This document shows positions 2,656 through 28,414 of a stretch of 29,642 bases of DNA, piece by piece. Source of the stretch: a virus; IMG/VR virus record IMGVR_UViG_3300009285_001913, positions 1 through 29,642 of that record; one strand, written 5' to 3'. A model generated the notes under the pieces. It was not told the origin of the DNA. It worked only from the letters and a program-made list of their open reading frames with translations, and did no database searches. The stretch's first letter is position 1. The number at the start of each line of letters is the position of its first letter. Made by a program: the position numbers and the translations under genes.

Positions 2656-3165
2656 GTGAGAACGGAGGCGACCGGAACGACCGAGGCGCCGTGCGGTAGC
2701 TTTTCGCTCCGCTGGATCGCGGTCTTCTCCAAGCCGCGCGAGGAACGTCGCGCGGCGGCGGCGCTGGCGGAGCAGGGATACCCAGTCTATCTGCCAACCA
2801 CGCCGGACGACCGGCCCCTTTTCCCAAGATACCTTTTCGCCGAGTGCGCCGCGACCGTGGCCGCGGCCCCCATCCGTTCGACGCGGGGCGTATCGGCGAT
2901 CCTGATGGACGGAGGCGGAAGGCCGCTTCACGTCGACGCGGAGACGATCGGACGTGTGCGTGACATCGAGCGCGAGGCGATGACCGAAGAGATGGCGCCG
3001 AAGGGGCCGCGGCCGGGCCAGCGGGTGCGGATATCCGAAGGCCCGTTGACAGGGGCGAGCGGGCTTTTGCAGATGGCCGGGGAGCGGCGCGTGATCGTGC
3101 TGCTGGACATGCTCGGCCGGCAATCGCGGGCGCAGATTGGCGCCAGCATGATCGAGCCGATCTGA
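2656..3165 (+). CDS. NusG/RfaH-family transcription elongation or antitermination protein
   Basis: 169 residues. NusG paralogues bind RNA polymerase through an N-terminal NGN domain and keep it elongating or antiterminating. NGN features: LRWIAVFSKPREERRAAAAL (residues 18-37), GYPVYLP (41-47), PLFPRYLFAEC (54-64) and a STRGVSAIL strand. A KOW-type C-terminal domain starts at about 117 (GPRPGQRVRISEGPLTGASG) and ends with a beta strand (RRVIVLLDMLGR). The length matches NusG specialised paralogues. The start is a GTG at 2656, which lies in the loop of a 6-bp-arm hairpin (2648-2665); no ATG is available in this frame. It precedes the terminase and sugar genes, so it may be the regulator of this long operon, as RfaH and LoaP are for polysaccharide operons. 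That role is inferred. Confidence 0.85.
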   Translation: MRTEATGTTEAPCGSFSLRWIAVFSKPREERRAAAALAEQGYPVYLPTTPDDRPLFPRYLFAECAATVAAAPIRSTRGVSAILMDGGGRPLHVDAETIGRVRDIEREAMTEEMAPKGPRPGQRVRISEGPLTGASGLLQMAGERRVIVLLDMLGRQSRAQIGASMIEPI

Positions 3166-3167
3166 AA

Positions 3168-3692
3168 ATGTCGAATCTCCATAAGAAAAGCGAGCGCGTG
3201 CGGCGCCTCCAGAGGGTGTTCGTCGAGACGCTCAGGGAAACGGGGATCATCAAGGCCGCGTGCGAAAAGACCGGCATCCACCGCAAGACCTACCTCCAAT
3301 GGCTGCGCCGGTACGAGGATTTCCGGCTGGCGAAGGAAGAGGCCATCGAGGACTCGCTCGACAGCCTTGAGCGGGAGGCGTGGCGCCGCGCCAAGGGATA
3401 TGACAAGGAAGTCATCTATCGCGGGGAGCCGACCGGAAAGACGTACAAGGAATACAGCGACAACCTGATCATGTTCCTGTTGAAGGGCAGGCGCCGGGAC
3501 GTGTTCGGAGACCGTCAGGAAATCACCGGCGACAAGGGCGCCCCGCTGCTCGCCAACAACCAGGACCGGGTGGACCTCGCCCGCCGGCTGCTCTACATCC
3601 TGAACAAGGGGGCCGCCGAGACGAAGGCCGATCGGGCGACGCCCGTGGATGCGGTGGTCCTGGATCAGGACGGCCCGGGGGGCGATCGATGA
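3168..3692 (+). CDS. terS: Terminase small subunit (DNA-packaging recognition)
   Basis: 174 residues. Small terminases recognise the packaging site and load the large subunit. The N-terminal half contains a helix-turn-helix (ETGIIKAACEKTGIHRKTYL, then QWLRRYEDF), followed by EEAIEDSLDSLEREAWRRA, a GxPTGKTYKEYSDNLIMFLL segment and LKGRRRDVFGDR, the typical order for phage small terminases of this type. The C terminus is Asp/Arg-rich and probably flexible. The start is two bases after the NusG-like stop, and the stop overlaps the next ATG (ATGA). Unusually, the large subunit is about 7 kb further on, with a sugar cassette between. Confidence 0.85.
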   Translation: MSNLHKKSERVRRLQRVFVETLRETGIIKAACEKTGIHRKTYLQWLRRYEDFRLAKEEAIEDSLDSLEREAWRRAKGYDKEVIYRGEPTGKTYKEYSDNLIMFLLKGRRRDVFGDRQEITGDKGAPLLANNQDRVDLARRLLYILNKGAAETKADRATPVDAVVLDQDGPGGDR

Positions 3693-4741
3693 CCATGCGG
3701 GCATGGCGGGCGATGGTCGTCCATCCATACGCGCCCGTATCGGCCGCGCTGCCGATCCTGGACGCGCATCAGATCGCGCTCGTGATTCGGGATCACGACG
3801 AAACCCTTCTCGGCACAATCACGGACGGCGATGTCCGCAGGGCGCTTCTCGCCGGCAACGGCGTGGATGTCCAGGCCGAGATCGTGATGCGCCGCCATCC
3901 GGTCGTCACGGGACCGGACGCGACCGACGAAGACGCCCTCGCGCTGATGCGGAGCGAGAAGGTGCGCCGCGTTCCCGTCGTCGATCGCGGGCGCCTGCTC
4001 GGCGTGCGTTTCCTGGAGGACCTGACGGAATCGGCGCCGCTTCCCAATCTGGCGGTCGTGATGGCCGGCGGACGCGGCGAGCGGTTGCGCCCGCTGACGG
4101 ACAAGATGCCCAAGCCGCTGGTCTACGTAGGCCCCGGCCCCATCCTCGACACCATCGTCGATGGGCTGGCGCGGGCTGGGTTCAGCCGCGTGTGTTTCGT
4201 GCTCCGCTATCTGGGCGGCAAGATCAGGAAGCGGTATGGGCGTGGCGCTCACGGCGTCGAATTCTCTTACGTGACCGAGGATCGTCCGCTCGGGACCGCC
4301 GGCGGGCTCGCGTTCGTGCAGGGGGCGTGCGGGCACCCGATGCTGGTCACGAACGGCGACGTGCTGACACGCTGCGATTACCGCGCACTCATGGAGTTCC
4401 ACGGCGAAGCGCACATGACGGTGGCGATCACGGATTCGGAAATTGAGGTTCCGTTCGGCGTGCCGACGATCGTCAAAGACGAAATAACCGACTTTCAGGA
4501 AAAGCCGACGCTCTCGTTCCCCGTGGCCGCCGGCATCTACGTCGTCAATCCGGCGGTCGTGACGCAATGGCTGGCGCCGGGCGCGGTCATGGACATGCCG
4601 GACCTGATCCGGAAGGCCATCGGCATCGGAAGCACGGTCCGCGCGTTTCCGATCCACGAATACTGGACCGACATCGGCCGCCCCAACGACCTGGCCAAGG
4701 CGCGCGACGAATATGGGGTGCGGTTCGGAGACGGGACGTGA
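3689..4741 (+). CDS. CBS-domain sugar-1-phosphate nucleotidyltransferase (PtmE-like)
   Basis: 350 residues. Expected to join a sugar-1-phosphate to an NTP to give an NDP-sugar in the cytosol. Two CBS repeats span residues about 10-115 (IALVIRDHDETLLGTITDGD; RRVPVVDRGRLLGV). The nucleotidyltransferase domain has VVMAGGRGERLRPLTDKMPK (123-142), a conserved LGTAGGL (201-207), the metal-site TNGDV (221-225), EKP (271-273) and WTDIGRP (326-332). This CBS plus NTP_transferase architecture is that of Campylobacter PtmE, the GlcN-1-phosphate guanylyltransferase of legionaminic acid synthesis, and of related surface-sugar enzymes; the exact substrate cannot be read here. All catalytic motifs look intact. 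It overlaps its neighbours as ATGA upstream and GTGA downstream. Confidence 0.85.
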   Translation: MTMRAWRAMVVHPYAPVSAALPILDAHQIALVIRDHDETLLGTITDGDVRRALLAGNGVDVQAEIVMRRHPVVTGPDATDEDALALMRSEKVRRVPVVDRGRLLGVRFLEDLTESAPLPNLAVVMAGGRGERLRPLTDKMPKPLVYVGPGPILDTIVDGLARAGFSRVCFVLRYLGGKIRKRYGRGAHGVEFSYVTEDRPLGTAGGLAFVQGACGHPMLVTNGDVLTRCDYRALMEFHGEAHMTVAITDSEIEVPFGVPTIVKDEITDFQEKPTLSFPVAAGIYVVNPAVVTQWLAPGAVMDMPDLIRKAIGIGSTVRAFPIHEYWTDIGRPNDLAKARDEYGVRFGDGT

Positions 4742-4983
4742 TCGATCCACGAGATCGTCCAGACCCACATTGGATGGAATTGCACACGACCAAGCTGATC
4801 GCCGCATGGCGGCGGGGGCTTGCCGAAAACGGGTCTCTGTGGTTCCCAGACGGTTTTGAGGCACTGGCGCGGGGGAACCCATGGTCGTTTGTCGAAAGGG
4901 CGTTCCTGGCCCTTCTGGACGGCGGTGAAATCCGCCAGGACAACACCGATCCGCATGTCTGGATCCGTGTGGATATGGCATGA
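4738..4983 (+). CDS. 81-residue protein in the sugar cassette, unknown
   Basis: Starts at a GTG that overlaps the previous TGA (GTGA) and ends in ATGA with the amidotransferase start. The protein begins (M)IDPRDRPDPHWMELHTTKLI and contains WRRGLAENGSLWFPDGFEAL, NPWSFVERAFLALLDGGEI and a DPHVWIRVDMA end. It is a compact, probably soluble alpha/beta protein with several Trp residues. No known family comes to mind. The tight overlap on both sides means it is co-translated with the sugar enzymes, but it may be an ordinary phage gene rather than part of the pathway. ATG at 4774 (WMEL) is a possible later start. Confidence 0.6.
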   Translation: MIDPRDRPDPHWMELHTTKLIAAWRRGLAENGSLWFPDGFEALARGNPWSFVERAFLALLDGGEIRQDNTDPHVWIRVDMA

Positions 4984-6293
4984 TCACCCTCGAGCAGCGC
5001 ATCGCCCGCCACCAGGAGACGCAGCCGTCCCCAACACCCGATCTGCTCTGGCCGCAAGAGGTCGAGAGCCGCCTGCGGGATGAAGCGTGGAACATGGACG
5101 AGCAGGAGTTGCCGTCCAAGGTCATTTTCTGCAAACGGTGTGTGGTGTCGAACCAGCGCCCGCGCATCGTGTTCGACGACGAAGGCATTTGCTCCGCGTG
5201 TCGGTATGCCGAATACAAGGACAAGATGGATCGGCGCGTCCGCGAGCAGCAATTCCGCGAGATGTTGGAGCGCCACCGCCGGCCGACCGGATACGACGTG
5301 ATCGTGCCGTGCTCCGGCGGCAAGGATTCGTCGATGGTCGCGCATCGGCTCAAGCACGATTACGACATGCATCCGCTGTGCGTGAAATGGGCGCCGTTCG
5401 CCTATACCGATGTCGGGTTACGGAATTTCCAGTCCTTCGTCCACGCCGGGTTCGACGTTCTCGTGGCGTGGCCGAACGGGAACATCCACCGCAAACTTTC
5501 GCGGCTGGCGTTCGAGTATCTGGGCGACGCATGGCAGCCGTTCACGTTCGGCCAGCTTTGCTATCCGATGCAGATGGCGCGGCGGTTTGGCATCAGTCTC
5601 GTCATGTTCGGCGAGAATGGCGAGGCCGAATACGGCGGCGACCCGGCAGCGAACGACAAGCCGTGCTGGGACTACGCCGATTGGGACCGCGTGTACCTCA
5701 AGGGCGCAAACGTCGACAGGCTGGTTGAGATCGGCACGCAATTGGGCGCGATCTCCGGCGCCGAGAAGAGGGACGTGAGCGAGTTCTATCGGATGCCGCC
5801 GGCCGCGCGGGACATCGAGTTCCATTGGTTCGGCTACTACCACCATTGGACGCCGCAAGAGAACTACATGTATGCCTGCGAGCATACGAGCTTCGAGTGC
5901 AATCCGGGGCGCTCGGAAGGCACCTACTCGAAGTATGCGTCCCTGGACGATCGGTTCGACGGCCTGCACTACTACATGGCGTTCATCAAGTTCGGCATCG
6001 GCCGCTGCACTTCGGACGCCGCGCACGAAATCCGCGACAGGCACATCACGCGGGACGAAGCCATTGCGCTGGTAACCCGCTTCGACGGCGAATTTCCGAA
6101 GAAGCATTTCCACGAGTTCTTGGTCTACCTCGGGATGGACGAGGATCGGTTCTGGCAGGTGGTGGACCGTTGGCGCCGCCCGCACATCTGGCACCACCGC
6201 ACGGAGCCGGGGCATCTGGTCGGCGAATGGCACCTGAACGAGCCGATATGGAAGGGATGGAAGCCGCCGCAGTCACCGCCGCCGATCGCATGA
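4980..6293 (+). CDS. N-acetyl sugar amidotransferase (WbpG/PseA/PtmG-like)
   Basis: 437 residues. The family converts an acetamido group on an activated or free sugar into an acetamidino group, using ammonia from glutamine. A four-Cys zinc-type motif is formed by FCKRCVVSNQRPRI and GICSAC (C51, C54, C71, C74). The PP-loop ATP site PCSGGKDSSM covers about 110-119. The C-terminal part has the family blocks SFECNPGRSEGTYSKYASLD, FIKFGIGRCTSDAAHEIRDR and FPKKHFHEFLVYLGM. Length and block order fit full-length WbpG/PseA proteins, so it looks intact. In Campylobacter the homologues PseA and PtmG modify pseudaminic or legionaminic acid. The glutaminase partner (HisH-like) is not seen in this window, so ammonia may come from a host enzyme. 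ATGA overlaps on both sides. Confidence 0.9.
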   Translation: MITLEQRIARHQETQPSPTPDLLWPQEVESRLRDEAWNMDEQELPSKVIFCKRCVVSNQRPRIVFDDEGICSACRYAEYKDKMDRRVREQQFREMLERHRRPTGYDVIVPCSGGKDSSMVAHRLKHDYDMHPLCVKWAPFAYTDVGLRNFQSFVHAGFDVLVAWPNGNIHRKLSRLAFEYLGDAWQPFTFGQLCYPMQMARRFGISLVMFGENGEAEYGGDPAANDKPCWDYADWDRVYLKGANVDRLVEIGTQLGAISGAEKRDVSEFYRMPPAARDIEFHWFGYYHHWTPQENYMYACEHTSFECNPGRSEGTYSKYASLDDRFDGLHYYMAFIKFGIGRCTSDAAHEIRDRHITRDEAIALVTRFDGEFPKKHFHEFLVYLGMDEDRFWQVVDRWRRPHIWHHRTEPGHLVGEWHLNEPIWKGWKPPQSPPPIA

Positions 6294-7072
6294 TCGGCGC
6301 CCTGCGCGCCGCGTGGTATGCCGCGACAGAATGGCGGAAGCTGCGGCGATTGCGCGCGAGGCATCTGACCGGCAATCGTTACGACACAGACGGCATCGTT
6401 TCCGTCTACATCCCAACCTACAACCGCGCCGATCTTCTGATGTCCCGCGCGCTCCCGAGCGTACTCCGGCAGACGTATCCAGTGTTCGAGGTCATCGTCG
6501 TCGCCGATGGCTGCACGGACGACACGGTGGCCCGCGTGAAGGAGCTTGGCGATTACCGCGTCCGCGTCGTCGAGATCAAGCGCGGACGCCGCTATCCGCC
6601 GACGGCGCGCAACCACTGGTTCGCGGGCCGTGTAGCCGCAGCGAATGCCGGTCTGGAAGCCTGCGAGGGAGACTGGATCGCGACCATCGACGACGATGAT
6701 GTGTGGGCCGAGGATCATATCGAATCGTCCCTCGAATTCGCCGCCAAGGGCAATTACGAGTTCGTCTCGTCCGATCACATCACGGTTCGCGACGGCAAGA
6801 CCCAGGTTGTCCGCGAGCCCGTCGGCGGCATCCAGACGTGGGTCTACCGCTCGTACCTGAAACACTTCAAGTTCAACCCGTCGTGCTGGCGCAAGCGGTG
6901 GAACGCGGTCTGCGACACGGACTTGCAGGACCGCTTCGAGAAGGCGGGCGTCCGCATGGGCCGGCACCCGAAGATCACATGCTCGGTGATGCCAAGGCCC
7001 GGCGAATCCACGGTCGGGCTCGACGCCTGGCTGAGGACCGAATCCGACCGCACGCGGCGCTTCGCAATTTAG
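6290..7072 (+). CDS. Family 2 (GT-A) glycosyltransferase
   Basis: 260 residues. GT2 enzymes transfer a sugar from an NDP-sugar to a glycan, lipid or protein acceptor. The nucleotide-binding start is VSVYIPTYNRADLL (37-50), followed by SVLRQTYPVFEVIVVADGCT (57-76) and the metal-binding acidic run ATIDDDDVWAEDHIE (131-145). The fold looks complete but short, without a long C-terminal extension or a membrane segment, so it is probably cytosolic. The start is the ATG overlapping the amidotransferase stop; an in-frame ATG at 6248 would overlap by 46 bases. Donor and acceptor are unknown. It is the only clearly recognisable glycosyltransferase of the cassette, so it may build the acceptor or add the sugar made by the 3689 enzyme. 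Confidence 0.85.
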   Translation: MIGALRAAWYAATEWRKLRRLRARHLTGNRYDTDGIVSVYIPTYNRADLLMSRALPSVLRQTYPVFEVIVVADGCTDDTVARVKELGDYRVRVVEIKRGRRYPPTARNHWFAGRVAAANAGLEACEGDWIATIDDDDVWAEDHIESSLEFAAKGNYEFVSSDHITVRDGKTQVVREPVGGIQTWVYRSYLKHFKFNPSCWRKRWNAVCDTDLQDRFEKAGVRMGRHPKITCSVMPRPGESTVGLDAWLRTESDRTRRFAI

Positions 7073-7080
7073 AGACGACG

Positions 7081-7374
7081 ATGGGAAATCCAAGTCAGGC
7101 GTTGACCGAAAGAAACCAAGTCGTTGCGGCTTTCGCCGCGCTTTGTCTCAGGTCAGGGTATCGCTGTGGTGTTTTGCATCCCATCATTCTTGGCTGGGAC
7201 CCAGAATGGACGGGGTGCGTTTATATTGATTTGCCGACAGGCCAAGTGTCCTGGCACTTCCATGACAGCCACGCGCCCATGTTCGAGTTTCTTCCGGCAT
7301 ACGACGGCTGTTGGGACGGACATGATGTCGACGAAAAGTATCGGAGAACCATCGCGTTCACGAGGTCGGAATGA
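7081..7374 (+). CDS. 97-residue phage hypothetical protein (VSWHFHD / DGHDVDEKYRR)
   Basis: The protein starts MGNPSQALTERNQVVAAFAA and contains a Gly/Trp part, then YIDLPTGQVSWHFHDSHAPM and a closing WDGHDVDEKYRRTI. This pattern (a TGQ-SWH strand, then an acidic WDGH..EKYRRI end) recalls a small hypothetical protein found in many phages and bacteria; the resemblance is from memory. Function unknown. It sits between the glycosyltransferase and the cytidylyltransferase, with eight bases before it and an ATGA overlap after it. Base composition drops toward lower GC here compared with the genes before it, which hints at a separate origin. Confidence 0.65.
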   Translation: MGNPSQALTERNQVVAAFAALCLRSGYRCGVLHPIILGWDPEWTGCVYIDLPTGQVSWHFHDSHAPMFEFLPAYDGCWDGHDVDEKYRRTIAFTRSE

Positions 7375-7949
7375 CAGTACTTGCGATTATCCCCGCTCGC
7401 GGCGGGTCGAAAAGAGTGCCCAGGAAGAACGTGCGCGACCTGTGTGGAAAGCCAATGATTTGTTGGACCATCGGCGCGGCGCTGGCGACGGAATGCATCA
7501 CCACGGCGGTCGTCTTTTCAGACGACGACGAAATTCTTGACGTTGCCCGATCCATGGGGTGTTTGACATTGAAAGAGCCGGCGGAAATGGCTCAGGATTC
7601 ATCGTCCATTTATGACGCGATTTTTTACGTATGTGACGCGCTGCCGCCGCACGATTATACGATGCTCCTTCATCCAACGTCGCCGCTGCGAACCGCGGAA
7701 GACATTGATGGGTGTTTTCGTACGTGCCTGCTCCACCGCGCGCCTTCATGCGTCACTGTCGACCTGTCGCGTCCGGTTGCCAACGGAGCGGTTTATGTGG
7801 CGTGGTCGACGTGGTTACGCGAATTCAAGAATTTCGATTTGGGCCGCACCGTTACTCACGTAATGCCAACAGAGAGATCGGTCGACGTTGACACTCCGTC
7901 TGATTTCGACCGTGCCGTCTCCCTTATGGCGCGGCGCTTCGCCGTCTAG
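7371..7949 (+). CDS. NeuA-like cytidylyltransferase (CMP-sugar synthetase), compact form
   Basis: 192 residues. The family activates nonulosonic acids (sialic, legionaminic, pseudaminic) with CTP. The CTP-binding start is AIIPARGGSKRVPRKNVRDL (5-24), followed by GKPMICWTI, a VVFSDDDEI strand (47-55), LLHPTSPLRTAEDI (99-112), NGAVYV (138-143) and VDVDTPSDFDRA (171-182). These give a confident family call. The usual length is about 225-240; here the stretch between the SVV-type strand (SCVTV, 126-130) and NGAVYV is only seven residues, where relatives carry several tens that help bind the sugar and form the dimer. The reading frame is clean, so this is an in-frame shortening, not a frameshift. 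Activity and substrate are therefore uncertain. ATGA overlap upstream. Confidence 0.8.
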   Translation: MTVLAIIPARGGSKRVPRKNVRDLCGKPMICWTIGAALATECITTAVVFSDDDEILDVARSMGCLTLKEPAEMAQDSSSIYDAIFYVCDALPPHDYTMLLHPTSPLRTAEDIDGCFRTCLLHRAPSCVTVDLSRPVANGAVYVAWSTWLREFKNFDLGRTVTHVMPTERSVDVDTPSDFDRAVSLMARRFAV

Positions 7950-7958
7950 GAGAGAGCC

Positions 7959-8468
7959 ATGATGACCAACGGCCACGTCTACGCGGTGTCCTTCACGTCG
8001 GCTGACGCGACCGGCGTGACCAAGGACATTTTCGATATCACGGGCTCGACGAAATCGAATTTCGTGGTCCATGCGCTTTACCTCGCCCAGATCGCGGCGG
8101 CACTCACGTCGTCGGCGATCGAAGCGGTGCCGATCGGCGTGTATCGCGGATCGACCCTGGCGTCGGCCGGAGGCGCGACATCGATTCCGCGCAAGCTGGA
8201 CGGGCGGTCGAGCGCGACGGCAACGTTCTCGGTGCTGATCAACTCGTCGAGCCCGGGATCGAGCGGCCCAGCGGCTCAGCTTCTCCATTCGATGCCTTGG
8301 AACACGCAGACGGCGTTCGTGTGGAAGCCGGCGCCCGAGGACAGGCCGACCTGCCGGCTGTCGCAGCGGCTCCAGGTGCGGCTCGGCGCGACGGCCTCGA
8401 CCGTGACCATCGGCGGCACGCTGATCGTCGAGGAGATCGGCAAGATTCCGGGATCGGCGGTCGCCTAA
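7959..8468 (+). CDS. Beta-rich phage protein, unknown (virion candidate)
   Basis: 169 residues after a good AGGAGAG ribosome site (7949-7955); ATG at 7962 is an alternative. It contains YAVSFTSADATGVTKDIFDI, VVHALYLAQIAAALT, a Ser/Gly/Ala-rich centre, WKPAPEDRPTCRLSQRLQVR and a closing TVTIGGTLIVEEIGK. The order (DIFEI-like start, VIHALYLxQ strand, RPTPEERP-like turn, SGTLxxEEIG end) recalls a widespread phage and bacterial hypothetical family of small beta-sandwich proteins. It is the first of four small genes just before the terminase, so a virion decoration or fibre-associated role is plausible but unproven. Confidence 0.65.
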   Translation: MMTNGHVYAVSFTSADATGVTKDIFDITGSTKSNFVVHALYLAQIAAALTSSAIEAVPIGVYRGSTLASAGGATSIPRKLDGRSSATATFSVLINSSSPGSSGPAAQLLHSMPWNTQTAFVWKPAPEDRPTCRLSQRLQVRLGATASTVTIGGTLIVEEIGKIPGSAVA

Positions 8469-9398: not shown

Positions 9399-9914
9399 AT
9401 GGCCTTCGCTGACATCCTCACGTCGCTCCACGGGCGACGTTTCGGGCTTTCGTCCTCGGGCGGCGTGCTCGTTTCGCCGACGACCGGAACCGGCTTTTCG
9501 CACCTCGCCGAGATCAGTTCGGCCGGCGTGTTCAACTCGTCGATCTCGTCGTTCGGGTCGACCATCGGCGAGTTCACGGCCAAGGTGGTCAAGAGCGTGG
9601 TCGAGACGATCTCCTCGTCCGCCGCGACGTTGGTGAACTACGGCCTGTCGATCATCTCCTCGGATGTCATCAACGGCTCCCTGCTCAAGATTTCGGCGCC
9701 CGAGACCGGCATCCACAAGGAGGTCTTCTGCCAGTCGAGCGCGTCCACGCTCAGCTTCACGACCACCGCCGACACCATCGTGTTCGATACCACCTTCGGG
9801 GCGTCGTCCTCGGCGCTGGTATTCGATCTTGTCGGCGGCACGCGCGGCAAGGCGCTGGTTTTGAGGGGCGTCGACGCAACCCGTTGGGCCGTGCTCCAGA
9901 AGACGCTCGTTTGA
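9399..9914 (+). CDS. Ser/Thr-rich beta protein, paralogue B
   Basis: 171 residues with a strong AGGAGAG site. Shares with the 8469 product a LTSLHGRRFGLSSSG start, KSVVETISSSAATLVNYGLS in the middle and LRGVDATRWAVLQKT at the end, with an extra segment of roughly 20 residues near the N terminus. Very Ser/Thr/Ala-rich, few charges, probably all-beta. As with its paralogue, a surface-exposed virion role is likely from composition and context, but the family is unknown. Two copies separated by one unrelated gene suggest duplication, or insertion of the middle gene into a tandem pair. Confidence 0.65.
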   Translation: MAFADILTSLHGRRFGLSSSGGVLVSPTTGTGFSHLAEISSAGVFNSSISSFGSTIGEFTAKVVKSVVETISSSAATLVNYGLSIISSDVINGSLLKISAPETGIHKEVFCQSSASTLSFTTTADTIVFDTTFGASSSALVFDLVGGTRGKALVLRGVDATRWAVLQKTLV

Positions 9915-9917
9915 TCC

Positions 9918-10784
9918 ATGGCTTCTGAGACCATCGACGGCACTGCCGGCGAATCGCCGGACAGCTTCGCCGGAATGCAGCTTACGCCCGGCTATCGGCC
10001 GGAGTTGCAAAAGCTGCCTCAGAAGAAGATCGCGATCCTCGGGACGTGTCCCTCACGGCTCCAAGCCCCCGTGGGGGACATTTCCTGGGAAATCTGGACC
10101 ATCGGCCCCGGCGGCAAGAACTCGAACCGATGGGAGCGCCTGTTCGAGATTCACGGCAAGGGATCGTGGCCCGAAGGCTTCCGGGAATACCTGGAGGAAT
10201 TGAAGGCCGAAAAGCCGCCCAAGATCATCTACACCGAGGAGCCCATGCCGGACTGGCCGGCGAACGTCGTCTTTCCGAAGCAGGCGATGTTCGAGAAGTA
10301 CGGCCGCATGTGGTTCACGTCCTCGATCGCCTACGCCCTCGCCATGGCGCTGGAGGAAAACGTCACCGACATGGGCTGTTGGGGCATCGACCTCGAGAGC
10401 GGCGAGGAATACCGCTCGCAGTTCACGGCGGCAAAATACTTCCTGCACCTTGCCCGCCTCGCCGGCGTAAACATGTGGCTGCCGGAAGGATGCGGCCTTC
10501 TCCGCGACCCGCACCCGTACCCAGAGGCGTGGGAATCGCATCTGGCGCAGACAATCATGGCGAAACAGGATTTTCTCCAGCAAATCCTGTCATCGAAAAC
10601 CACACAGCACGGCCAGCTTGCCGCCGAGATCAACCACATCAGCGGCGAGCTCGCGGCCTTCGAGTTCATCAAGAAAACCTACGTGATCGGCGGCGAGCAG
10701 GCGGACGCGCGCCTTCCGACGACGCAGAAGCCGAGCCTGGAATCCAAGATCGACATGCTGATCGCGCTGCTCAGGAGCAAATGA
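9918..10784 (+). CDS. Rossmann-like phage protein, possible MptE/GT42-type glycosyltransferase, copy A
   Basis: 288 residues. After a flexible N terminus come KKIAILGTCPSRLQAP (36-51, a G-x-x-P-S nucleotide-loop-like start), SWEIWTIGPGG (56-66), RWERLFEIHG (71-80), MWFTSSIAYALAMALEENVT (131-150), DMGCWGIDLESGEEY (151-165) and a C-terminal helical region. The spacing of the GxxPS loop, the T-S-S helix with A-x-A-L-E-x-x-V-x-x-(L/M)-G, and the G-(I/V)-D strand resembles GT42 sialyltransferases (CstII: GNGPS ... TSG...ALGY.EI.L.G.D) and DUF115/MptE-like proteins. That link is inference from motif order only. A second copy lies at 27497-28414. An internal ATG at 9975 is an alternative start. Its stop overlaps the terminase start. 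Confidence 0.6.
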   Translation: MASETIDGTAGESPDSFAGMQLTPGYRPELQKLPQKKIAILGTCPSRLQAPVGDISWEIWTIGPGGKNSNRWERLFEIHGKGSWPEGFREYLEELKAEKPPKIIYTEEPMPDWPANVVFPKQAMFEKYGRMWFTSSIAYALAMALEENVTDMGCWGIDLESGEEYRSQFTAAKYFLHLARLAGVNMWLPEGCGLLRDPHPYPEAWESHLAQTIMAKQDFLQQILSSKTTQHGQLAAEINHISGELAAFEFIKKTYVIGGEQADARLPTTQKPSLESKIDMLIALLRSK

Positions 10785-12355
10785 GCGTTTTCGACGACCT
10801 GATGGCCCAACTCGACAAGTTGCCGGCGCGCGAGCGCGAGGCGCTTTCCCGACACGTCATGACCGCCACGGCGTCGGACATCTGGATACCAAATCCAGGC
10901 CCTCAAACGGAAGCGTACTATTGTACAGCGGATGAACTGTATTTTGGCGGCAGCGCCGGGGGCGGGAAGAGCGAAATAGGTCTCGGATTGGCCTTCACGG
11001 CGCACGAACGGTCGCTTCTTTTGCGCCGGATCAACGACGACGCCCGCGCCCTCGCCGACCGTGCCGTCGAGATCGTCGGGCACAGCAAGGGACTTCGCCG
11101 CGACATCCTCGAATGGCACCTGCCCGGCCGGATGATCGATTTCGGCGGATGCCAACTGGAGACGGACAAGCAACGCTACAAGGGCAAGCCGCACGATCTT
11201 ATTTTCTTCGACGAGGCCGCCGATTTTCTCGAATCCCAAGTGGACTTCATCACGCTGTGGCTCCGGTCCACGAACCCGACGCAGAGGTGCCGGATCGTAT
11301 TCGCGTCGAACCCGCCGACGACGGCCGAGGGGTTCTGGCTGGTACGGCGGTTCGCGGCGTGGCTCGACCCGAAGCATCCGAATCCGGCCAAGCCCGGCGA
11401 AATCCGCTGGTATCTCCGGCGCTGCGAGGACGAGGATGAGGTTGACGGGCTGGGGCCGTATCCGGTCGGCGCCGAGATGGTGAAGGCGACCAGCCGCACG
11501 TTCATCCGGTCGCGCCTTGAGGACAACCCGGACCTCATTCACAGCGGATACAAGGACCGGCTGCATCTGGCGCCGGTCGAGTTGCGAGACGCCTATCGCG
11601 AGGGGAAGTTCGAGGCGAGCCTGGCCGATCAGCCGAATCAGGTCATCCCGACGGCGTGGGTGATGGCCGCGCAGAAGCGGTGGCGGCCGAAGATACCCGA
11701 TGGCATCCCGATGGTGGCGATGGGGGTCGATTGCTCGGGCGGTGGCAAGGACCCTCTGATCATCGCGCCACGGTACGATACGTGGTTCGCGCCCCTGGTC
11801 GAGGTTGCCGGCAAGGACATGCCCGTCGAGAGCCTTGGGAAGTTCTCGGCGGCAGTGATCCTGTCGCATCGCCGGCATGGCGCGGCCATCGTCCTCGACA
11901 TGGGCGGAGGCTACGGCAACTCGATTTTCGAGCGCCTGCGCGACAACAACGTGCAGGTGGTCCAGTACAAGGGAAGCGAATCGACGTTGCAGCGGACGCG
12001 CGACCGCACCCTCGGTTTTTACAACGTGCGGTCACACGCGATCTGGAAGTTCCGCGAGGCTCTCGACCCGGATCAGGAAGGCGGATCGCCGATCGCGCTT
12101 CCCGACGATCAGCGGCTTCTCGCCGATCTTGTCGCGCCCAAGTTCGAGCCGGGAGCGCGAGGCATCAAGGTCGAGGCCAAGGAGGATGTGGTCAAGCGTC
12201 TTGGCCGTTCGACCGATCGCGGCGACGCGGTGATGATGTCCTGGTACGCATGGGCGCCTGCGCTTGGCGGCCTGGCTTTCGGCCATGATGGCGAAGGCCG
12301 CCGTGCCGGCAGGCCGGTCTACATCATGGGCCGCCACCGAAGGAGACATCGATGA
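10781..12355 (+). CDS. terL: Terminase large subunit (packaging ATPase-nuclease)
   Basis: 524 residues. It pumps DNA into the capsid and cuts the concatemer. Walker A is GGSAGGGKS (56-64) and Walker B is LIFFDEAADF (about 140-149), followed by the coupling motif IVFASNPPTT. The RNase H-like nuclease half shows acidic residues in MVAMGVDCSGGGKDPL, AAIVLDMGGGYGNS and STDRGDAVMMSWY, matching the usual three-acid layout. The length is normal for the family. The start is the ATG overlapping the previous stop (ATGA); the longer frame upstream is a shadow. It is separated from the small subunit by about 7 kb, whereas the two are usually adjacent. Confidence 0.93.
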   Translation: MSVFDDLMAQLDKLPAREREALSRHVMTATASDIWIPNPGPQTEAYYCTADELYFGGSAGGGKSEIGLGLAFTAHERSLLLRRINDDARALADRAVEIVGHSKGLRRDILEWHLPGRMIDFGGCQLETDKQRYKGKPHDLIFFDEAADFLESQVDFITLWLRSTNPTQRCRIVFASNPPTTAEGFWLVRRFAAWLDPKHPNPAKPGEIRWYLRRCEDEDEVDGLGPYPVGAEMVKATSRTFIRSRLEDNPDLIHSGYKDRLHLAPVELRDAYREGKFEASLADQPNQVIPTAWVMAAQKRWRPKIPDGIPMVAMGVDCSGGGKDPLIIAPRYDTWFAPLVEVAGKDMPVESLGKFSAAVILSHRRHGAAIVLDMGGGYGNSIFERLRDNNVQVVQYKGSESTLQRTRDRTLGFYNVRSHAIWKFREALDPDQEGGSPIALPDDQRLLADLVAPKFEPGARGIKVEAKEDVVKRLGRSTDRGDAVMMSWYAWAPALGGLAFGHDGEGRRAGRPVYIMGRHRRRHR

Positions 12356-15316: not shown

Positions 15317-16318
15317 ATGGCTGACGACGAAATCAACGCCGACGATCTGGCGCTCGTTGACGGCGGAGATTCTGCCGATGCGTCCGATGATGCCGCCGGC
15401 GCCGCTGGTGACACGACGGGGACTGCGGAGGACAAGGCCGATGTGGGAGACAAGGGCAAGACGACGACGCTTCTGAGCGACCCGGACAAAGCCGCCGCAG
15501 AGCCCGTCACGCACCCGGCCGACTGGCCAGAGGACTGGCGCGACCGCATGGCGGCGGGCGACGACAAGCTCCGTAAGCGTCTCGACCGCTTCAAGAGCCC
15601 GCTCGACGTGGCCGCGTGGGGCGTCAACGCCGAAAAGAAGTACAAACAGGGCGTGGCGCCGTCGGAATTCCCGGCCGGGGGGACGGACGACGAAAAGAAG
15701 GCATGGCGCGCCGAGCACGGCATCCCGGATGATCCCAAGGACTACCTCAAGGACATCAAGCTGGACGACGGCCTTGTGATCGGCGACCGCGACAAGCCGA
15801 TGGTCGAGGAATTCGCCGCCGCGATGCACGAGGAGAACGCCGATCCGAAGTACGTGCAGCGGTCGATCAACGCCTATTTCCGGATGCGCGACAAGATGGC
15901 GCGCGACCGCATGGACAACGACGAGCGGCAGAAGATGGACGCGCGGGACGCGCTGCGGGACGAGTTCGGCAACGAGTTTCACCGCAACCTGACGGCCGCA
16001 TACGGGCTGGTCGAGAGTGCCCCCGAGGAAGTCCGCGAGCAGTTGATGGGAGCGCGGCTGGCGGATGGTACGGCCCTCGGCAACCATGCCCCGACGCTGC
16101 GGTGGCTGACCGGCCTCGCGCTCGAAATCAACCCGGCGGCGACGGTCGCGCCCGGCTCGCGAGGCGACGGCCTTTCCGTACTCCAGGACCGCAAGACGGA
16201 AATCGAGCGGATCATGCGCGACGACCGCGACAAATACGACCGTGACCCCAAGATGCGGGCGGAGTATCGTGACCTCCTGGAGGCCGAGGAGAAGTTCGAG
16301 AGGCGGAGACGCGCATGA
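15317..16318 (+). CDS. Capsid scaffolding protein
   Basis: 333 residues. It guides assembly of the capsid shell and is then lost. The N terminus is highly acidic and disordered (Asp/Ala-rich, residues 1-60). HPADWPEDWRDRMAAGDDKL is a typical opening of the ordered part, followed by LDRFKSPLDVAAWGVNAEKK and long charged helices. A basic helical tail (EAEEKFERRRRA) is in the usual place for capsid binding. The position directly upstream of the capsid region, acidic low-complexity start and helix content support the call. It overlaps the next small gene as ATGA. Confidence 0.85.
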   Translation: MADDEINADDLALVDGGDSADASDDAAGAAGDTTGTAEDKADVGDKGKTTTLLSDPDKAAAEPVTHPADWPEDWRDRMAAGDDKLRKRLDRFKSPLDVAAWGVNAEKKYKQGVAPSEFPAGGTDDEKKAWRAEHGIPDDPKDYLKDIKLDDGLVIGDRDKPMVEEFAAAMHEENADPKYVQRSINAYFRMRDKMARDRMDNDERQKMDARDALRDEFGNEFHRNLTAAYGLVESAPEEVREQLMGARLADGTALGNHAPTLRWLTGLALEINPAATVAPGSRGDGLSVLQDRKTEIERIMRDDRDKYDRDPKMRAEYRDLLEAEEKFERRRRA

Positions 16319-16422
16319 ACATCGAGGACATCGAGGATATCGTCATTTTCGCGATTGCGGCGACGCCCGTTTTCGTCACCGTGATCTTCGGCATCGCCAT
16401 CGTCTTTGGGGTGTTCCCATGA
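16315..16422 (+). CDS. 35-residue single-pass membrane peptide
   Basis: Starts MNIEDIEDIVIFAIAATPVF and continues with VTVIFGIAIVFGVFP. Residues about 9-34 form one long hydrophobic helix after a short acidic N terminus. It overlaps the scaffold stop (ATGA) and the radical SAM start (ATGA), which strongly favours a translated gene. Possible roles (membrane peptide, holin-like or regulator) cannot be told apart; the acidic, short N terminus is not a typical holin. Confidence 0.65.
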   Translation: MNIEDIEDIVIFAIAATPVFVTVIFGIAIVFGVFP

Positions 16423-17303
16423 GGCCGATCTGGGAAAACACGGTCATTCACGTCGACGTGACCAACGCCTGCCACCTGAAATGCGCCAACTGCACGCGCC
16501 ACGTCGGCCACCATCGCAATCCGTTTTTCATGGGCCTGGACACCGTGCGGAAGGGCATCGCGTCGCTGCTCGACTTTCCCGGCCGCATCGGCATGATGGG
16601 CGGCGAGCCGACCCTGCATCCGCAATTCCGGGAGATTTGCGCGATCTACCGCGATATGATTCCCGACCGGCGCAAGCGCGAGTTCTGGACGGCGGGATGG
16701 AAGTGGGGCGAGTATCGCGCCGACATCCTCGACACCTTCGACGAGGACCGGATCAGCTACAACGACCACACGCAGCTCTCGGGCCGGCACCAGCCGCTTC
16801 TGGTGGCGATCGAGGATGTTGTCGAGGACCCTGAGATTCGCCGCATCCTGATCGACAACTGCCCGTTTCAGGCCCGGTGGTCGGCGGCGATCACGCCAAA
16901 GGGCGCGTTCTTCTGTGAGGTCGCCGCCTCGCTCGACTGGCTATTCAACGGTCCCGGCGGCTATCCGATCGAGCCCGGATGGTGGCGGAAGTCGCCGGCG
17001 CAGTTCGCCGATCAGGTTGACCGCTATTGCGGGTCTTGCTCGGGAGCCATTCCAATGGAGACGCTTTCGGACGGCCGCGGCGGTCGCGACGGCCCGACCA
17101 GGGACGTTGTTTCACGGAAGAACCTCGATCTTCTGATCGGCGCCGGCTCGCCCAAGGCACTCAAGGGTCACGTCGACGTATGGGACAAGCCTGTGGATCA
17201 AGCCTATGTCGACGCGCACATCGAAGGATGGAAGCCGCGCCAGTTCCGCGATTTCGTGGCGCACACGCCCGAGGATGTGAAGAAAGCGATTGAGGCCGCG
17301 TGA
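16419..17303 (+). CDS. Radical SAM enzyme, substrate unknown
   Basis: 294 residues. The CxxxCxxC motif is ACHLKCANCTR (C18, C22, C25), binding the 4Fe-4S cluster that cleaves SAM. GMMGGEPTLHPQF (58-70) is the SAM-binding glycine motif. Four more cysteines (C148, C166, C204, C207, in NCPFQARWSAAITPKGAFFC and YCGSC) may hold a second cluster, as in SPASM/twitch-type enzymes. A GWWRKSP block follows the GPGGYPIEPG loop. I recall similar proteins in phages and environmental bacteria, with no known substrate. The longer frame from 16242 overlaps the scaffold, so the ATG in the ATGA overlap is used. A redox enzyme between scaffold and capsid genes is unexpected. Confidence 0.85.
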   Translation: MRPIWENTVIHVDVTNACHLKCANCTRHVGHHRNPFFMGLDTVRKGIASLLDFPGRIGMMGGEPTLHPQFREICAIYRDMIPDRRKREFWTAGWKWGEYRADILDTFDEDRISYNDHTQLSGRHQPLLVAIEDVVEDPEIRRILIDNCPFQARWSAAITPKGAFFCEVAASLDWLFNGPGGYPIEPGWWRKSPAQFADQVDRYCGSCSGAIPMETLSDGRGGRDGPTRDVVSRKNLDLLIGAGSPKALKGHVDVWDKPVDQAYVDAHIEGWKPRQFRDFVAHTPEDVKKAIEAA

Positions 17304-25131: not shown

Positions 25132-27500
25132 TGGGCGATACTTCTGACCGGGGTTTTCTGGATGCCGTGCGTTCCGGGATGCCGCAGGTTCCGGCGCAAT
25201 CCGACCAATCGTTCATCGAGGATGTGCGCCGCCAGCAAATGACTCATTCCGGGTCGTCGATCGGACAGCAATCTCCCGAACAATTCCTGGCTGGCCAGGT
25301 TGGTCAGCTTCGCCTTGGCGAACCAGGACTGGACGACTTCAAGATCAGGGCGGACATATCCCTGTCCGACTCGATTGAAGAAAAAGCGGCCAAGTTCAAG
25401 GCGAATTTCCCGGACGGGGATTTTGTTGAGGTCCGCCAGCCCACCGATCCGAACAAGGTCTTTCCGCTCGGCGGTACGACATATCTATTCCGCCGCAACC
25501 AAAGTGAGCCGTTCGCGAAGTTCGATGCCGACGCATTCGAGAAGTTCGAGCTTTGGATGGATATCGCCGACTTCACGGGCGATGTTCCGTCGATCGTCAT
25601 GGAGACGATGATAACGCGCGGCGGCACGCTTATCCAAACTCTCGGCCGGTTGTTTCTCGGTGGCGCGACCGGAGAGGTGGTCAAGGAGGCGGTTGAGGAC
25701 TGGCGCGGGTTTTCCAGCGAAACCGCTGGTCAGGTAACGAGCAGGGCGCTCACGACCGGCGCTGCCAGCGCCGTTGGCGGCGCCGCCACGGTGGCCGTGT
25801 CAGGTCCGATCAACATTCTTCGCGGGCGCGCGAACATAGGCATCGTTCCTGGAGCGCCGTCTGCGGTCGCGGCGGCCAGGCGGCTTGGCGTGAAGGGCCT
25901 TTTGCCAGGACAGATTTCAACATCTCCGATCCTGCGGAAATTGCAGGGGCAATCAGGCGCGACCGTGAGCACCGTCGGCAACTATATGCGGGAACAGAAC
26001 GAAGGCGCTATTCGTGCGCTCCTACGTCTCGACGATCAGTATCTTCCCGATCTTCTTGCCGACAACCTGGAGAAACTGAGCAAAGAGGCGAAGCGCCAGA
26101 TCGTCGACACGATCAAGAAAAGGCCCATGGACCTTTCCGAGACCGGCAGCGCCATTCAGCACGGCATCTCCGAATACGACGATCTGACGACCGCGCTGAT
26201 AAACAGGGCCTATGCCAATGCGCGGGCGCTCGAAACGCCAGAATTCGATATCAGTCCCGCAGTCGAGGTCGCGAACAAAATCCAAGTCGGCGTGCGAGGC
26301 GTCGTCGCCGGAGAGGAAACCAGACTCAATCCTCTCGACAGGCAGCTGGCGGATGTCGTTGGGATCATCAAGGAGCTTGATCCGTCGCTTCCGGATGTCG
26401 GCGCCGGCTCCGCGACCGACCAATTGCGGGCGCTCAGATCAACGCTTTATGACCTTAAGACGCCCGATCCAGGGACGATCGCCAGACAGCCCCAAAAGGA
26501 CGCGGCGCGGCTGTATGCGGCCATAACCAAGGTGCTAAAGGACCCGCGTAACACAAGTCCAGAATTCCGGGCCGCGTGGGACAGAGCCAATTCCATGGCG
26601 AGCGACAGGTTTGACACATTTGACAAACTGATCATCGTCAAGGCTGTGCAGAACGAGACTCCCGCCATGATGGCAAATCGCCTTGCGCAGCCGCTCCAGG
26701 TGGACAATCTGAAAGTCCTCAGGGAGACGATTCCCGCGCCCAGGTGGAACGAATTCAGGGAGGGGGTCAAGGCTGATTTCCTGAGCGTCCGCAATGTCGA
26801 CGAATTGACGAGTAGGCTCCAGAACTTCGACCAGCCGACGCTCAACGAGCTTTTCAGCGCGCAGGATCAGGCGATCCTGAAAGGAATTGGAAAGAGCATC
26901 GACCGCTTCAACAGATTGAATATAGGTAAAATTCTCGAACAGCAAAGGAGCCGCGCCAACGTCGTCAGAACGTTGATGGACAAGGGAGATGCAGGCACCC
27001 TTGACGCCTTCATGAAAAGCATCCCGGCCGATCCGAATGCACCCGTGCGCCGTCAGTTGAGGGCTGGACTCATCGAGGACGCGATCCAAAGCGTGACGAC
27101 CGTGGCCGGGAACAGACTGGTCATCAACCCGAAGGCTCTTGCTTCATACATCGACAAACTGAAAAAAACAGGAGCGGAGCGGCTTCTGACGACGGAAGAC
27201 AAAAGGGTTCTGATCGACCTCGATCAGGTCATGCAATTCATCCCTGACGTGTCCGATTCGGGAACTAGCCTGATCGCCGGACAGGTTGTGTCGGAAGTCA
27301 AAAAGGGGAAACTCGACGCCATTCTCACCCTCGTTCACTACGCGGGCATAGGGCGGATTTTGACGAGCAAGACGGCGCAGCGAGTCCTCATCGGCGCCGG
27401 CCGCAGTCAGCCTATGGATTTCACGAATCTAAGGATTTTCGGCGGGGTCCTCGGAACGGTCGCGTCTGATTTCGAGCAGGAATCGCAACCCGCGCAATGA
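25131..27500 (+). CDS. Large internal virion / DNA-ejection protein (gp16 position)
   Basis: 789 residues, ATG sharing one base with the previous TGA. N-terminal part with FDADAFEKFELWMDIADFTG; a Gly/Ala-rich hydrophobic region around residues 165-235 (GGTLIQTLGRLFLGGATGEV and ASAVGGAATVAVSGPINILR) that may contact membrane; then a long helical C-terminal half with NREYL-like charged helices, ending LVHYAGIGRILTSKTAQRV. I do not see the lytic transglycosylase domain of T7 gp16. Role inferred from position and the helix/membrane layout. Composition is AT-richer than the surrounding genes, as in the gene before it. Confidence 0.6.
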   Translation: MGDTSDRGFLDAVRSGMPQVPAQSDQSFIEDVRRQQMTHSGSSIGQQSPEQFLAGQVGQLRLGEPGLDDFKIRADISLSDSIEEKAAKFKANFPDGDFVEVRQPTDPNKVFPLGGTTYLFRRNQSEPFAKFDADAFEKFELWMDIADFTGDVPSIVMETMITRGGTLIQTLGRLFLGGATGEVVKEAVEDWRGFSSETAGQVTSRALTTGAASAVGGAATVAVSGPINILRGRANIGIVPGAPSAVAAARRLGVKGLLPGQISTSPILRKLQGQSGATVSTVGNYMREQNEGAIRALLRLDDQYLPDLLADNLEKLSKEAKRQIVDTIKKRPMDLSETGSAIQHGISEYDDLTTALINRAYANARALETPEFDISPAVEVANKIQVGVRGVVAGEETRLNPLDRQLADVVGIIKELDPSLPDVGAGSATDQLRALRSTLYDLKTPDPGTIARQPQKDAARLYAAITKVLKDPRNTSPEFRAAWDRANSMASDRFDTFDKLIIVKAVQNETPAMMANRLAQPLQVDNLKVLRETIPAPRWNEFREGVKADFLSVRNVDELTSRLQNFDQPTLNELFSAQDQAILKGIGKSIDRFNRLNIGKILEQQRSRANVVRTLMDKGDAGTLDAFMKSIPADPNAPVRRQLRAGLIEDAIQSVTTVAGNRLVINPKALASYIDKLKKTGAERLLTTEDKRVLIDLDQVMQFIPDVSDSGTSLIAGQVVSEVKKGKLDAILTLVHYAGIGRILTSKTAQRVLIGAGRSQPMDFTNLRIFGGVLGTVASDFEQESQPAQ

Positions 27501-28414
27501 AAAAAATCTGCATCATCGGCACCACGCCGTCGCGGGGGATGGCGCCGTTCGACGATCCGGAATGGGAGGTCTGGACGATCGGGCCGGGCGGGCGGGACGT
27601 TCCGGGCCACCGTTGGGAGCGGCTTTACGAGATACACGGCGCGGGCCGGAACCATACATGGTCCGAGGACTTCGGCGAGTACCTTGAATTCCTGTCGAAG
27701 GTCGAGCCGCCGAAGCGGGTGATCACGATCCGGCCGATCAGCGAGATGATCCGCGATTGGGCCGAGCAGCACGGCAAGCACGACGTGTCGTTCGCGGGCG
27801 CGTGGTCGGCGTGCGAGGTCATGGACAAGGACGGCCTCATGCGGAAGTACAAGCGCATGTGGATGTCGTCGTCGTTCTCGTGGGCGATGGCGCAGGCGCT
27901 TGAGGAAGGCGTCACCGACCTGGGCGTCTACGGGGTCGATCTGGAGGCGGGCGAGGAATACGTGACGCAGTTCGCGGGCGCGCGTCATTTCCTCGATTTG
28001 GCCGAACATCTTGGCGTCAAGATTCACATGCCGCCCCACTGCGGGCTGTGGCGCGATCCGGCGCCGTATCCCGAGCGTTGGGAGACGTACGAGGCGATCT
28101 GGTTCCAGAACCGCATCCGGATGCTTGGCAACCTCGCCTCGCACCAACAGGCGGCGATGAACGAAATCCAGGCGCAGATGTTCCGGCGCGAGGGCGCCAT
28201 CCGCGCGCTGTCCGACATCGCCGAGCACCACAAGGGCGCGGTCAAGATGGAAGCCGAGGACGCGATGAAGGCCCTGCACGCGGACAACATCAAGGCATCG
28301 TCCGAATTGCAGCGCGCGGCGGCGGAATTGAGCCACCTGAACGGCCAGTTGGCGACGTGCAAGCTCTACATGGAGCATTTCGTTTTCACGGGCATGACCG
28401 GGATACGGCAATGA
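27497..28414 (+). CDS. Rossmann-like phage protein, possible MptE/GT42-type glycosyltransferase, copy B
   Basis: 305 residues, paralogue of the 9918 product. It starts directly with KKICIIGTTPSRGMAPFDD, then WEVWTIGPGG (23-32), RWERLYEIHG (39-48), MWMSSSFSWAMAQALEEGVT (121-140), DLGVYGVDLEAGEEY (141-155), HCGLWRDPAPYPERWETYEA (181-200) and a long Ala/Glu/Gln C-terminal helix that suggests oligomerisation. The shared blocks are colinear in both copies. As for copy A, the fold link to GT42/MptE-like proteins is inference. It lies between the last ejection protein and the tail fibre and overlaps both as ATGA. Confidence 0.6.
   Translation: MKKICIIGTTPSRGMAPFDDPEWEVWTIGPGGRDVPGHRWERLYEIHGAGRNHTWSEDFGEYLEFLSKVEPPKRVITIRPISEMIRDWAEQHGKHDVSFAGAWSACEVMDKDGLMRKYKRMWMSSSFSWAMAQALEEGVTDLGVYGVDLEAGEEYVTQFAGARHFLDLAEHLGVKIHMPPHCGLWRDPAPYPERWETYEAIWFQNRIRMLGNLASHQQAAMNEIQAQMFRREGAIRALSDIAEHHKGAVKMEAEDAMKALHADNIKASSELQRAAAELSHLNGQLATCKLYMEHFVFTGMTGIRQ

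Follow-up and report, generated by a model that had tools for sequence, protein, structure and literature searches.

A predicted sugar-activation cassette in a phage packaging block

We analyzed a run of phage genes related to sugar activation and tailoring, with homologs of PtmE, WbuX/PtmG, and NeuA/LegF at its core, in IMG/VR record IMGVR_UViG_3300009285_001913. The window, meaning the whole stretch of DNA that was analyzed, is the entire record (G000; 29,642 bases, linear, possibly a fragment). Its large terminase subunit (TerL) is 38–39% identical to TerL of Bordetella BPP-1 and Caulobacter phages, and head–tail adaptor and tail proteins are encoded 3′ of the TerL gene; by sequence, the window is a BPP-1-like uncultured phage. 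The three enzyme genes sit in a tight run between the genes for the small terminase subunit (TerS) and TerL. All cassette reading frames are open, and between the TerS and NeuA genes five of six junctions are stop/start overlaps of 4 bp (at 3689, 4738, 4980, 6290, and 7371). The genes of this block are as follows.

2656..3165, + strand: RfaH/NusG-like antiterminator, 5′ of the cassette (PF02357, 45 bits; TIGR01955 RfaH, 85.6 bits, under the cut-off of 144.5)
3168..3692, + strand: TerS, left cassette border (phrog_4044, E 4.9e-24)
3689..4741, + strand: PtmE-like protein with CBS and sugar-1-phosphate nucleotidyltransferase domains (Pfam: two CBS stretches, 63.1 bits, and NTP_transferase, 108.7 bits, both over cut-off)
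4738..4983, + strand: 81-aa open reading frame (ORF) with a GTG start, translationally coupled (4-bp overlaps at both ends)
4980..6293, + strand: WbuX/PtmG/PseA-like N-acetyl sugar amidotransferase (TIGR03573, 299.3 bits, over the cut-off of 203.2)
6290..7072, + strand: family-2 glycosyltransferase, GT2 (PF00535, 91.3 bits; phrog_841, weak, E 1.1e-4)
7081..7374, + strand: small WDGH-domain-like protein (PF25311, 22.1 bits, under the cut-off of 27; phrog_3392, E 1.6e-7)
7371..7949, + strand: short CMP-nonulosonate synthetase, NeuA/LegF-like (PF02348, 66.8 bits)
9918..10784, + strand: GT42-sialyltransferase-fold protein, candidate nonulosonyltransferase (AlphaFold model), adjoining TerL
10787..12355, + strand: TerL, right cassette border (phrog_2, E 2e-26)

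A preliminary description of this DNA had placed PtmE-, WbuX/PtmG-, and NeuA-like genes here, and matches in Pfam, NCBIfam, and the Protein Data Bank (PDB) bear out all three. That gene set was incomplete: it overlooked the GT2 gene, two small ORFs, the RfaH-like and GT42-like genes, a radical S-adenosylmethionine (radical-SAM) gene, and the loss of a domain from NeuA.

WbuX and the synthase NeuB occur in the same phages

The best PDB match of the window WbuX was 8wex (E 1.1e-88). Its ATP-pyrophosphatase P-loop (SGGKD, residues 112–116) and cysteines 51, 54, 71, and 74 were invariant in 11 of 11 aligned rows. Searching IMG/VR with WbuX yielded nine loci at 51–66% identity; NeuA added L011, and the terminase added L067 and L017, the last of which has GT2 as its sole cassette gene. 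Since the same kinds of genes recur together in these relatives, the cassette is not a chance assembly. In all 16 contigs in which both genes were found (18 rows, two of which repeat a contig; L006 and L007 are near copies), WbuX precedes TerL in the same orientation.

We then asked which phages with a related terminase carry NeuB, the nonulosonic-acid synthase. A search with the single window TerL as query returned no relatives; an alignment as query returned at least 578 candidates, of which the best 80 were used. Co-occurrence was scored in 44 of these, picked by length (at least 15 kb; the other 36 were shorter and were excluded). NeuB was present in 10 of the 44 records and WbuX in the same ten, with eight WbuX proteins over the family cut-off and two under it (Fisher 4.0e-10, kinship ignored). 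Two pairs, L018/L019 and L066/L068, were identical over the compared stretches, and removing the two duplicates gave 6.8e-10; L041 and L042, 95% alike over 10.7 kb, were both retained.

Contigs of assembled genomes were searched as well. A first search there found no relatives, and a search with an alignment of phage WbuX found 61 loci, 45 of which had NeuB within the fetched flanks. Three of those 45 (L123, L135, and L157) are maybe phage. The L123 contig belongs to a metagenome-assembled genome (MAG) of Aurantimonas coralicida and has a related TerL as well (the two loci share 961 identical overlapping bases), a hint of alphaproteobacterial hosts. L135, which also carries NeuB, NeuC, and NeuD, comes from a MAG with no related TerL and is either bacterial or phage. 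L157 groups with L009; there was no TerL match in either record, and their phage status comes from IMG/VR for L009 and from similarity for L157.

In a WbuX tree of 74 rows, from which the fragment L002 and L007 were excluded, the window, eight other IMG/VR copies, and L123 formed one clade (support 100/97) whose sister was a protein of Rhizobiales bacterium 64-17. L009 and the phage copies from pseudaminic-acid-type (Pse-type) cassettes fell elsewhere, which indicates that viral contigs gained WbuX more than once. Beside WbuX, L009 carries a run of aminotransferase-, cytidylyltransferase-, sugar-kinase-, isomerase-, and transketolase-like genes (L009:1974-6607; read by eye, with one weak transketolase match computed), which by its sequence appears to be a different sugar pathway.

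A CMP-sugar synthetase without its dimerization domain

The best NCBIfam model for the window NeuA was PseF (TIGR03584, 101 bits, under the cut-off of 205.7), and its best PDB sequence match was a CMP-Neu5Ac synthetase (E 6e-22). The AlphaFold model (predicted local distance difference test, pLDDT, 93.7) matched CMP-Neu5Ac, CMP-Kdn, and CMP-Pse synthetases at Z 24.4–29.5, led by 1eyr (CMP-Neu5Ac synthetase, Z 29.5 over 188 residues), and KdsB at Z 22.0 or less. The assignment to nonulosonic acids made in the preliminary description is thus supported by the NeuA fold, by the joint presence of WbuX and NeuB in the same ten phage records, and by NeuB at 45 of the 61 genome WbuX loci.

The protein is short at a defined place. 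In the Vibrio CMP-sialic acid synthetase, as described in the available part of PMC6580227, a 39-residue dimerization domain (137–176) bears the catalytic Arg169. From the SP to the NG motif (P105 to G139), the window NeuA spans 33 residues, and 14 aligned phage copies span 31–34; L007 (a near copy of L006), L012, and L013 are equally short (31–32 residues). The stretch that these copies lack is the counterpart of the dimerization domain. Among 40 genome-derived rows, the span was 63–71 residues in 36, 50–51 in two, and short in L157 (29) and L123 (33). The comparison left out ORFs outside 150–300 aa (e.g., L151) and the cytidylyltransferase of L044, which is of another type, with no conserved Gly at that column and 42 residues. 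In a NeuA tree of 54 rows, the phage label needed two changes, and a single change sufficed in 0% of 200 bootstrap trees. The dimerization domain was therefore probably lost at least two times, once among legionaminic-acid-type (Leg-type) and once among Pse-type copies, the latter label resting on PseF-like scores (L120: 192.7 bits, cut-off 205.7) together with the tree. The nucleotide- and metal-binding core is kept, with R10, R15, K19, N20, and D172 identical in all 14 phage copies; position 174 was D in seven, including the window, and N in the other seven.

A candidate transferase that tracks the pathway

The protein encoded at 9918–10784 had no match in Pfam, NCBIfam, or PHROG searches. 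Its AlphaFold model (pLDDT 82.2; predicted template-modeling score 0.64) retrieved structures of the sialyltransferase CstII, whose catalytic histidine is His188, at Foldseek ranks one to three (E 8.6e-4 to 9.9e-3), followed by a match at 1.8e-2. We consider the protein, from its model, a candidate GT42-type transferase of a CMP-activated sugar. Its family was found in 13 of the 44 records, comprising every one of the 10 that have NeuB and 3 of the 34 that lack it (Fisher 1.2e-7; deduplicated, 1.9e-7), with a profile that included rows from 10 of these 13 records, picked beforehand by tblastn similarity. Two of the three NeuB-negative records have the gene ∼1 kb (G016/L024) and ∼1.5 kb (G043/L075) from a record end and may therefore have truncated cassettes; the third, G031, is not explained in this way. 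By alignment, the window appears to encode a second member of the family.

27497..28414, + strand: second GT42-fold-family protein, 46% identical to 9918–10784, overlapping a tail-fiber-like gene by 4 bp

Fuller cassettes in relatives

Relatives carry the early steps. The cassette of L008, a 60,102-base record, has equivalents of PtmE, NeuA, radical SAM, a methyltransferase, WbuX, WbuZ, LegB, LegC, NeuC, NeuB, and GT2. Its LegB-like dehydratase fits TIGR04180 best (335 bits, cut-off 475), its NeuB exceeds the cut-off of PF03102 and scores 276.5 bits with the NCBIfam NeuB model (cut-off 399.65), and it has NeuD at 39% identity. Several L008 enzymes score under NCBIfam cut-offs, as divergent copies would. 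At the same place L001 (TerL 60%) has NeuC (265.5 bits, over cut-off), NeuD, radical SAM, WbuX, WbuZ, NeuA, a LegC-family aminotransferase (345 bits, cut-off 420), and GT2. WbuZ, the HisF-like companion that supplies ammonia to WbuX, was present in L001, L006, L008, L011, and L067 and was not found in L004 or L005.

NeuB was present in 8 of the 13 records first examined (G004, G006, G007, G008, G009, L011 [G010], L012, and L013) and was not found in the window, L001, L005, or the fragments L002 and L003. Counted among the nine close WbuX records, five had NeuB, and the other four include the two fragments; L067 has it as well. L012 and L013 combine NeuB with a short cytidylyltransferase (26% identical to NeuA of the window, with 31 residues where the dimerization domain would be), with no WbuX match at the locus. 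L011:2359-2709 looks like a NeuC gene of which just the C-terminal end is left (16 residues at 81%); if it is a remnant, it would point to loss of early steps.

A second type of cassette occurs in the distant terminase relatives L021, L044, L046, L050, L052, L056, L065, and L087. All eight have NeuB, WbuX (27–32%), and WbuZ, and L021, L046, L052, L056, and L065 have a PseF-like short cytidylyltransferase; judged from these matches, it looks like a pseudaminic-acid version.

Other cassette genes and candidate acceptors

The 350-aa PtmE-like protein has the architecture CBS-CBS-NTP_transferase of PtmE-type enzymes, and GDP-sugar specificity is predicted from it. Its relatives in L005, L006, and L008 comprise the nucleotidyltransferase part only (213–228 aa, 36–39% identical). 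GT2 homologs reached 45–57% identity in Leg-type TerL loci and 51% in MAG contig L135. The 81-aa ORF had no family match and no homolog in the relative loci compared. The start of the WDGH-like gene was set at the ATG at 7081 because there is no start codon at 7069. Homologs of the RfaH-like gene also lie 5′ of the cassette in L001–L004, and 24–27% matches occur in L074 and L089, which have no cassette.

Three Ser/Thr-rich proteins are encoded between NeuA and the GT42-fold gene, and the other 24 proteins measured have at most 20% Ser + Thr. These and two genes further along the window are listed below.

7959..8468, + strand: Ser/Thr-rich protein (23% Ser + Thr), candidate virion protein or acceptor by composition; homologs in L004, L006, L007, and L011
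8469..8930, + strand: Ser/Thr-rich protein (30%), candidate virion protein or acceptor by composition
9399..9914, + strand: Ser/Thr-rich protein (28%), candidate virion protein or acceptor by composition
16242..17303, + strand: radical-SAM protein, with homology from 16425 (phrog_13987, E 1.4e-4)
28411..29640, + strand: tail-fiber/decoration-like protein (20% Ser + Thr), possible acceptor, cut by the record end (phrog_11518, tail fiber, E 4.5e-18; phrog_2647, head decoration, E 7.7e-17)

Homologs of 8469–8930 were seen in ten Leg-type rows, Pse-type L065 (27%), and L123, and none in cassette-less loci; those of 9399–9914 occur in Leg-type rows, Pse-type L046 (26%), L123, and L039 (a 9.9-kb record in which no cassette gene was matched). 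The tail-fiber-like protein contains many short repeats of the Ser-Ala-Tyr-Val-Ala-Ala-Gly type.

When remnants of the missing genes were looked for in the window by tblastn with relatives' proteins (E 10), the sole meaningful match was that of the radical-SAM query to 16440–16655 (E 3.5e-4), inside the gene at 16242–17303. Homologs of 16242–17303 occur in L005, on the L001 contig, in L067, and on MAG contig L135, where the gene stands between WbuX and GT2; judging from these relatives, the protein probably modifies a sugar as part of this system. Most Leg-type cassettes have a radical-SAM/SPASM gene near WbuX (L001:7922-8833; L002, L004–L008, L011, and L067), and the window cassette has none. 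Such proteins may have a sugar-epimerizing or other tailoring role.

Interpretation and alternatives

The enzyme families, the gene order, the co-occurrence with NeuB in relatives, and the fold similarities lead us to read the cassette, with a probability of about two-thirds, as a phage-encoded set for activating and tailoring a nonulosonic acid of the legionaminic type, placed in the packaging and structural block, where it would be expressed late. In the mechanism we propose, the host would make a legionaminic-type acid and supply the free sugar. NeuA (7371–7949) would couple CTP to it, WbuX (4980–6293) would convert an N-acetyl to an acetamidino group, and PtmE (3689–4741) may raise the supply of a GDP-linked precursor. 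The GT42-fold proteins (9918–10784 and 27497–28414) would then pass the CMP-activated sugar to acceptors that are most likely virion proteins, candidates being the neighboring Ser/Thr-rich proteins or the tail-fiber-like protein; GT2 would prime or extend the glycan. We favor the virion as acceptor because WbuX lies upstream of TerL and because genes for Ser/Thr-rich and tail-fiber-like proteins neighbor those of the system.

Several observations weigh against this reading. The preliminary description had noted that the synthase, dehydratase, and aminotransferase steps are absent from the window, and this is what we found: there was no match to NeuB (PF03102) in the 29,642-base record, and tblastn with NeuB, NeuC, NeuD, LegB, and LegC from L001, L004, and L008 gave nothing below E 0.05 (best, 0.053). 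WbuZ was also absent from the window (tblastn best E 2.3), and the host would have to supply the sugar. The record may be incomplete, at 29.6 kb and linear compared with 44–60 kb for L067, L011, and L008. L005 likewise has PtmE, radical SAM, WbuX, a dehydratase, and GT2 with no NeuB in the record and no NeuA within the 14.7 kb examined, its cassette lying near the contig start. The window NeuA lacks the ∼35-residue dimerization domain, which in the meningococcal enzyme includes Arg165 and Lys142; there, in the portion of PMC2901514 available, K142A was among the most damaging mutations, and R165A or Q166A left activity absent or strongly reduced. In solved CMP-sialic acid synthetases, two subunits form the active site (PMC6580227, available part), so the shortened phage NeuA cannot form its site in that way. 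At position 69 the window has Glu, against Arg in 13 of 14 copies, and at the Gln104 position (window His101) it shares His with L003, with Gln in seven copies and Tyr in five.

The transferase assignment meets objections of its own. VIA-align placed the 9918–10784 model against Cst structures at Z 8.6–9.4 over 148–159 residues, scores equaled by HPPK (Z 9.8) and thiamine pyrophosphokinase (Z 9.4), and its sequence profile matched a sialyltransferase (9c08) at only E 0.84; we prefer GT42 to the two pyrophosphokinases because of the Foldseek ranking and the link with NeuB. Both co-occurrence statistics ignore kinship among the phages, and the GT42-fold profile was partly built from records it later recovered. 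GT2 enzymes are not known as CMP-nonulosonic acid transferases. With NeuB, dehydratase, aminotransferase, and epimerase missing, the window most likely serves to activate and amidinate a sugar that the host makes, in line with the partial toolkit acting on a host sugar that had been suggested from the first look at the sequence.

The closest rival, unlikely in our judgment and still deserving serious attention, is that the cassette alters the O-antigen, capsule, or flagella of the host during infection or lysogeny and thereby blocks superinfection or masks receptors. It has a precedent in prophage EpaA/EpaB, which act on host capsule nonulosonic acids (PMC12053666, available part). An RfaH-like antiterminator precedes the cassette, and RfaH-type antiterminators control polysaccharide operons. 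Read from its translation, L002 has a resolvase-like recombinase ORF, and L123 places a relative with TerL on the same contig in an Aurantimonas MAG. Conversion genes, however, usually stand beside integration genes, and the constant position of WbuX ahead of TerL in one orientation (16 of 16 contigs) fits packaging genes instead; no flippase or membrane acceptor was recognized in ten window proteins scanned, although no dedicated search was made. That the cassette is decaying, its early steps lost and its remaining genes, including the shortened NeuA, no longer making an activated sugar, seems to us improbable. The missing NeuB, NeuC, NeuD, LegB, and LegC, the C-terminal end of NeuC that L011 seems to keep, and Glu69 and His101 of the window NeuA would suit decay. 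It is countered by the open frames with 4-bp overlaps kept at five of six junctions, by the invariant NeuA core residues, and by the short NeuA being common to phages with complete pathways, such as L008.

Very improbable, finally, is a role for WbuX and PtmE on a hexose (FucNAm- or ManNAc3NAmA-like) with NeuA as a cytidylyltransferase of the 3-deoxy-D-manno-octulosonate (KDO) or another type, and no nonulosonic acid involved. The WbuX family does include hexose-acting members, PtmE-type nucleotidyltransferases match many hexose-1-phosphate enzymes, and the window has no NeuB match. Against this stand the perfect co-occurrence of WbuX and NeuB in the 44 related records, NeuB at 45 of the 61 genome loci found with phage WbuX, and a NeuA model nearer to CMP-nonulosonic acid synthetases than to KdsB. 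On these grounds we judged a KDO or hexose pathway unlikely; the grouping with such pathways, which the preliminary description had named as evidence that would refute its nonulosonic-acid reading, was not found for WbuX or NeuA. Modification of DNA bases, for which no dedicated enzyme search was made, was dropped because the relatives' cassettes match each successive step of a nonulosonic-acid pathway.

Relation to known systems and meaning for phage biology

The likeness to the Campylobacter ptm/leg set, proposed from the sequence alone, holds at the level of gene content, the comparison being drawn by gene set and not with Campylobacter sequences: the window has equivalents of PtmE, PtmG/WbuX, and LegF/NeuA, and L008 adds those of LegB, LegC, NeuC, and NeuB. 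Unlike the Campylobacter system, the phage cassette sits in a packaging block, has three steps only in the window, and encodes a NeuA without the dimerization domain; its GT42-fold proteins may stand in for the Maf transferases that Campylobacter uses. GtrB-type O-antigen conversion resembles the window in its phage-borne GT2 glycosyltransferase, whereas the window GT2 belongs to a multistep sugar-nucleotide cassette in the packaging block.

Phage-borne enzymes that modify host nonulosonic acids are known from the Acinetobacter baumannii prophage genes epaA and epaB, which convert Pse to 8ePse on the host capsule (PMC12053666), and from phage O-acetyltransferases acting on capsule residues (PMC6586298), as described in the available parts of these papers. 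Unlike the window, the epaA/epaB system in that part of PMC12053666 includes no phage-encoded CMP-sugar synthetase, amidotransferase, or NeuB. A 2013 virome gene table gives neuA (11; 5) and neuB (126; 8), and the part of PMC3877843 available, unlike the present case, presents no gene cluster, phage genome, or mechanism. Among the literature matches listed (open-licence PMC, available in part), we found no description of a phage-encoded legionaminic-acid pathway, and the available portions of PMC7003362 and PMC9599517 held no relevant passage. When 50,697 deposited phage records were searched by tblastn (E 1e-5), neither WbuX nor the Ser/Thr-rich protein of 8469–8930 had a match; NeuA was found only in a Moritella contig, NeuB in three records including that contig, and the GT42-fold gene in one, a Microcystis phage.

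Phages that use one or two enzymes to change the sugars of their host are already known; the phage group described here has, in its packaging block, most or all of the steps that lead to a sialic-acid-like sugar, together with a candidate transferase that tracks the pathway. We tentatively extend this, at somewhat less than even odds, to the proposal that a group of uncultured podovirus-like phages make and tailor their own nonulosonic acids and attach them to virions through TerL-adjacent GT42-fold transferases and dimerization-domain-free CMP-sugar synthetases, a minimized form that would have arisen at least two times, Leg-type and Pse-type. These results suggest that some phages produce sialic-acid-like sugars as a coat for themselves or for their host. 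Should virions carry the sugar, phages would have their own version of a sialic-acid-type coating, with a possible benefit to the phage and a bearing on receptor masking and phage clearance.

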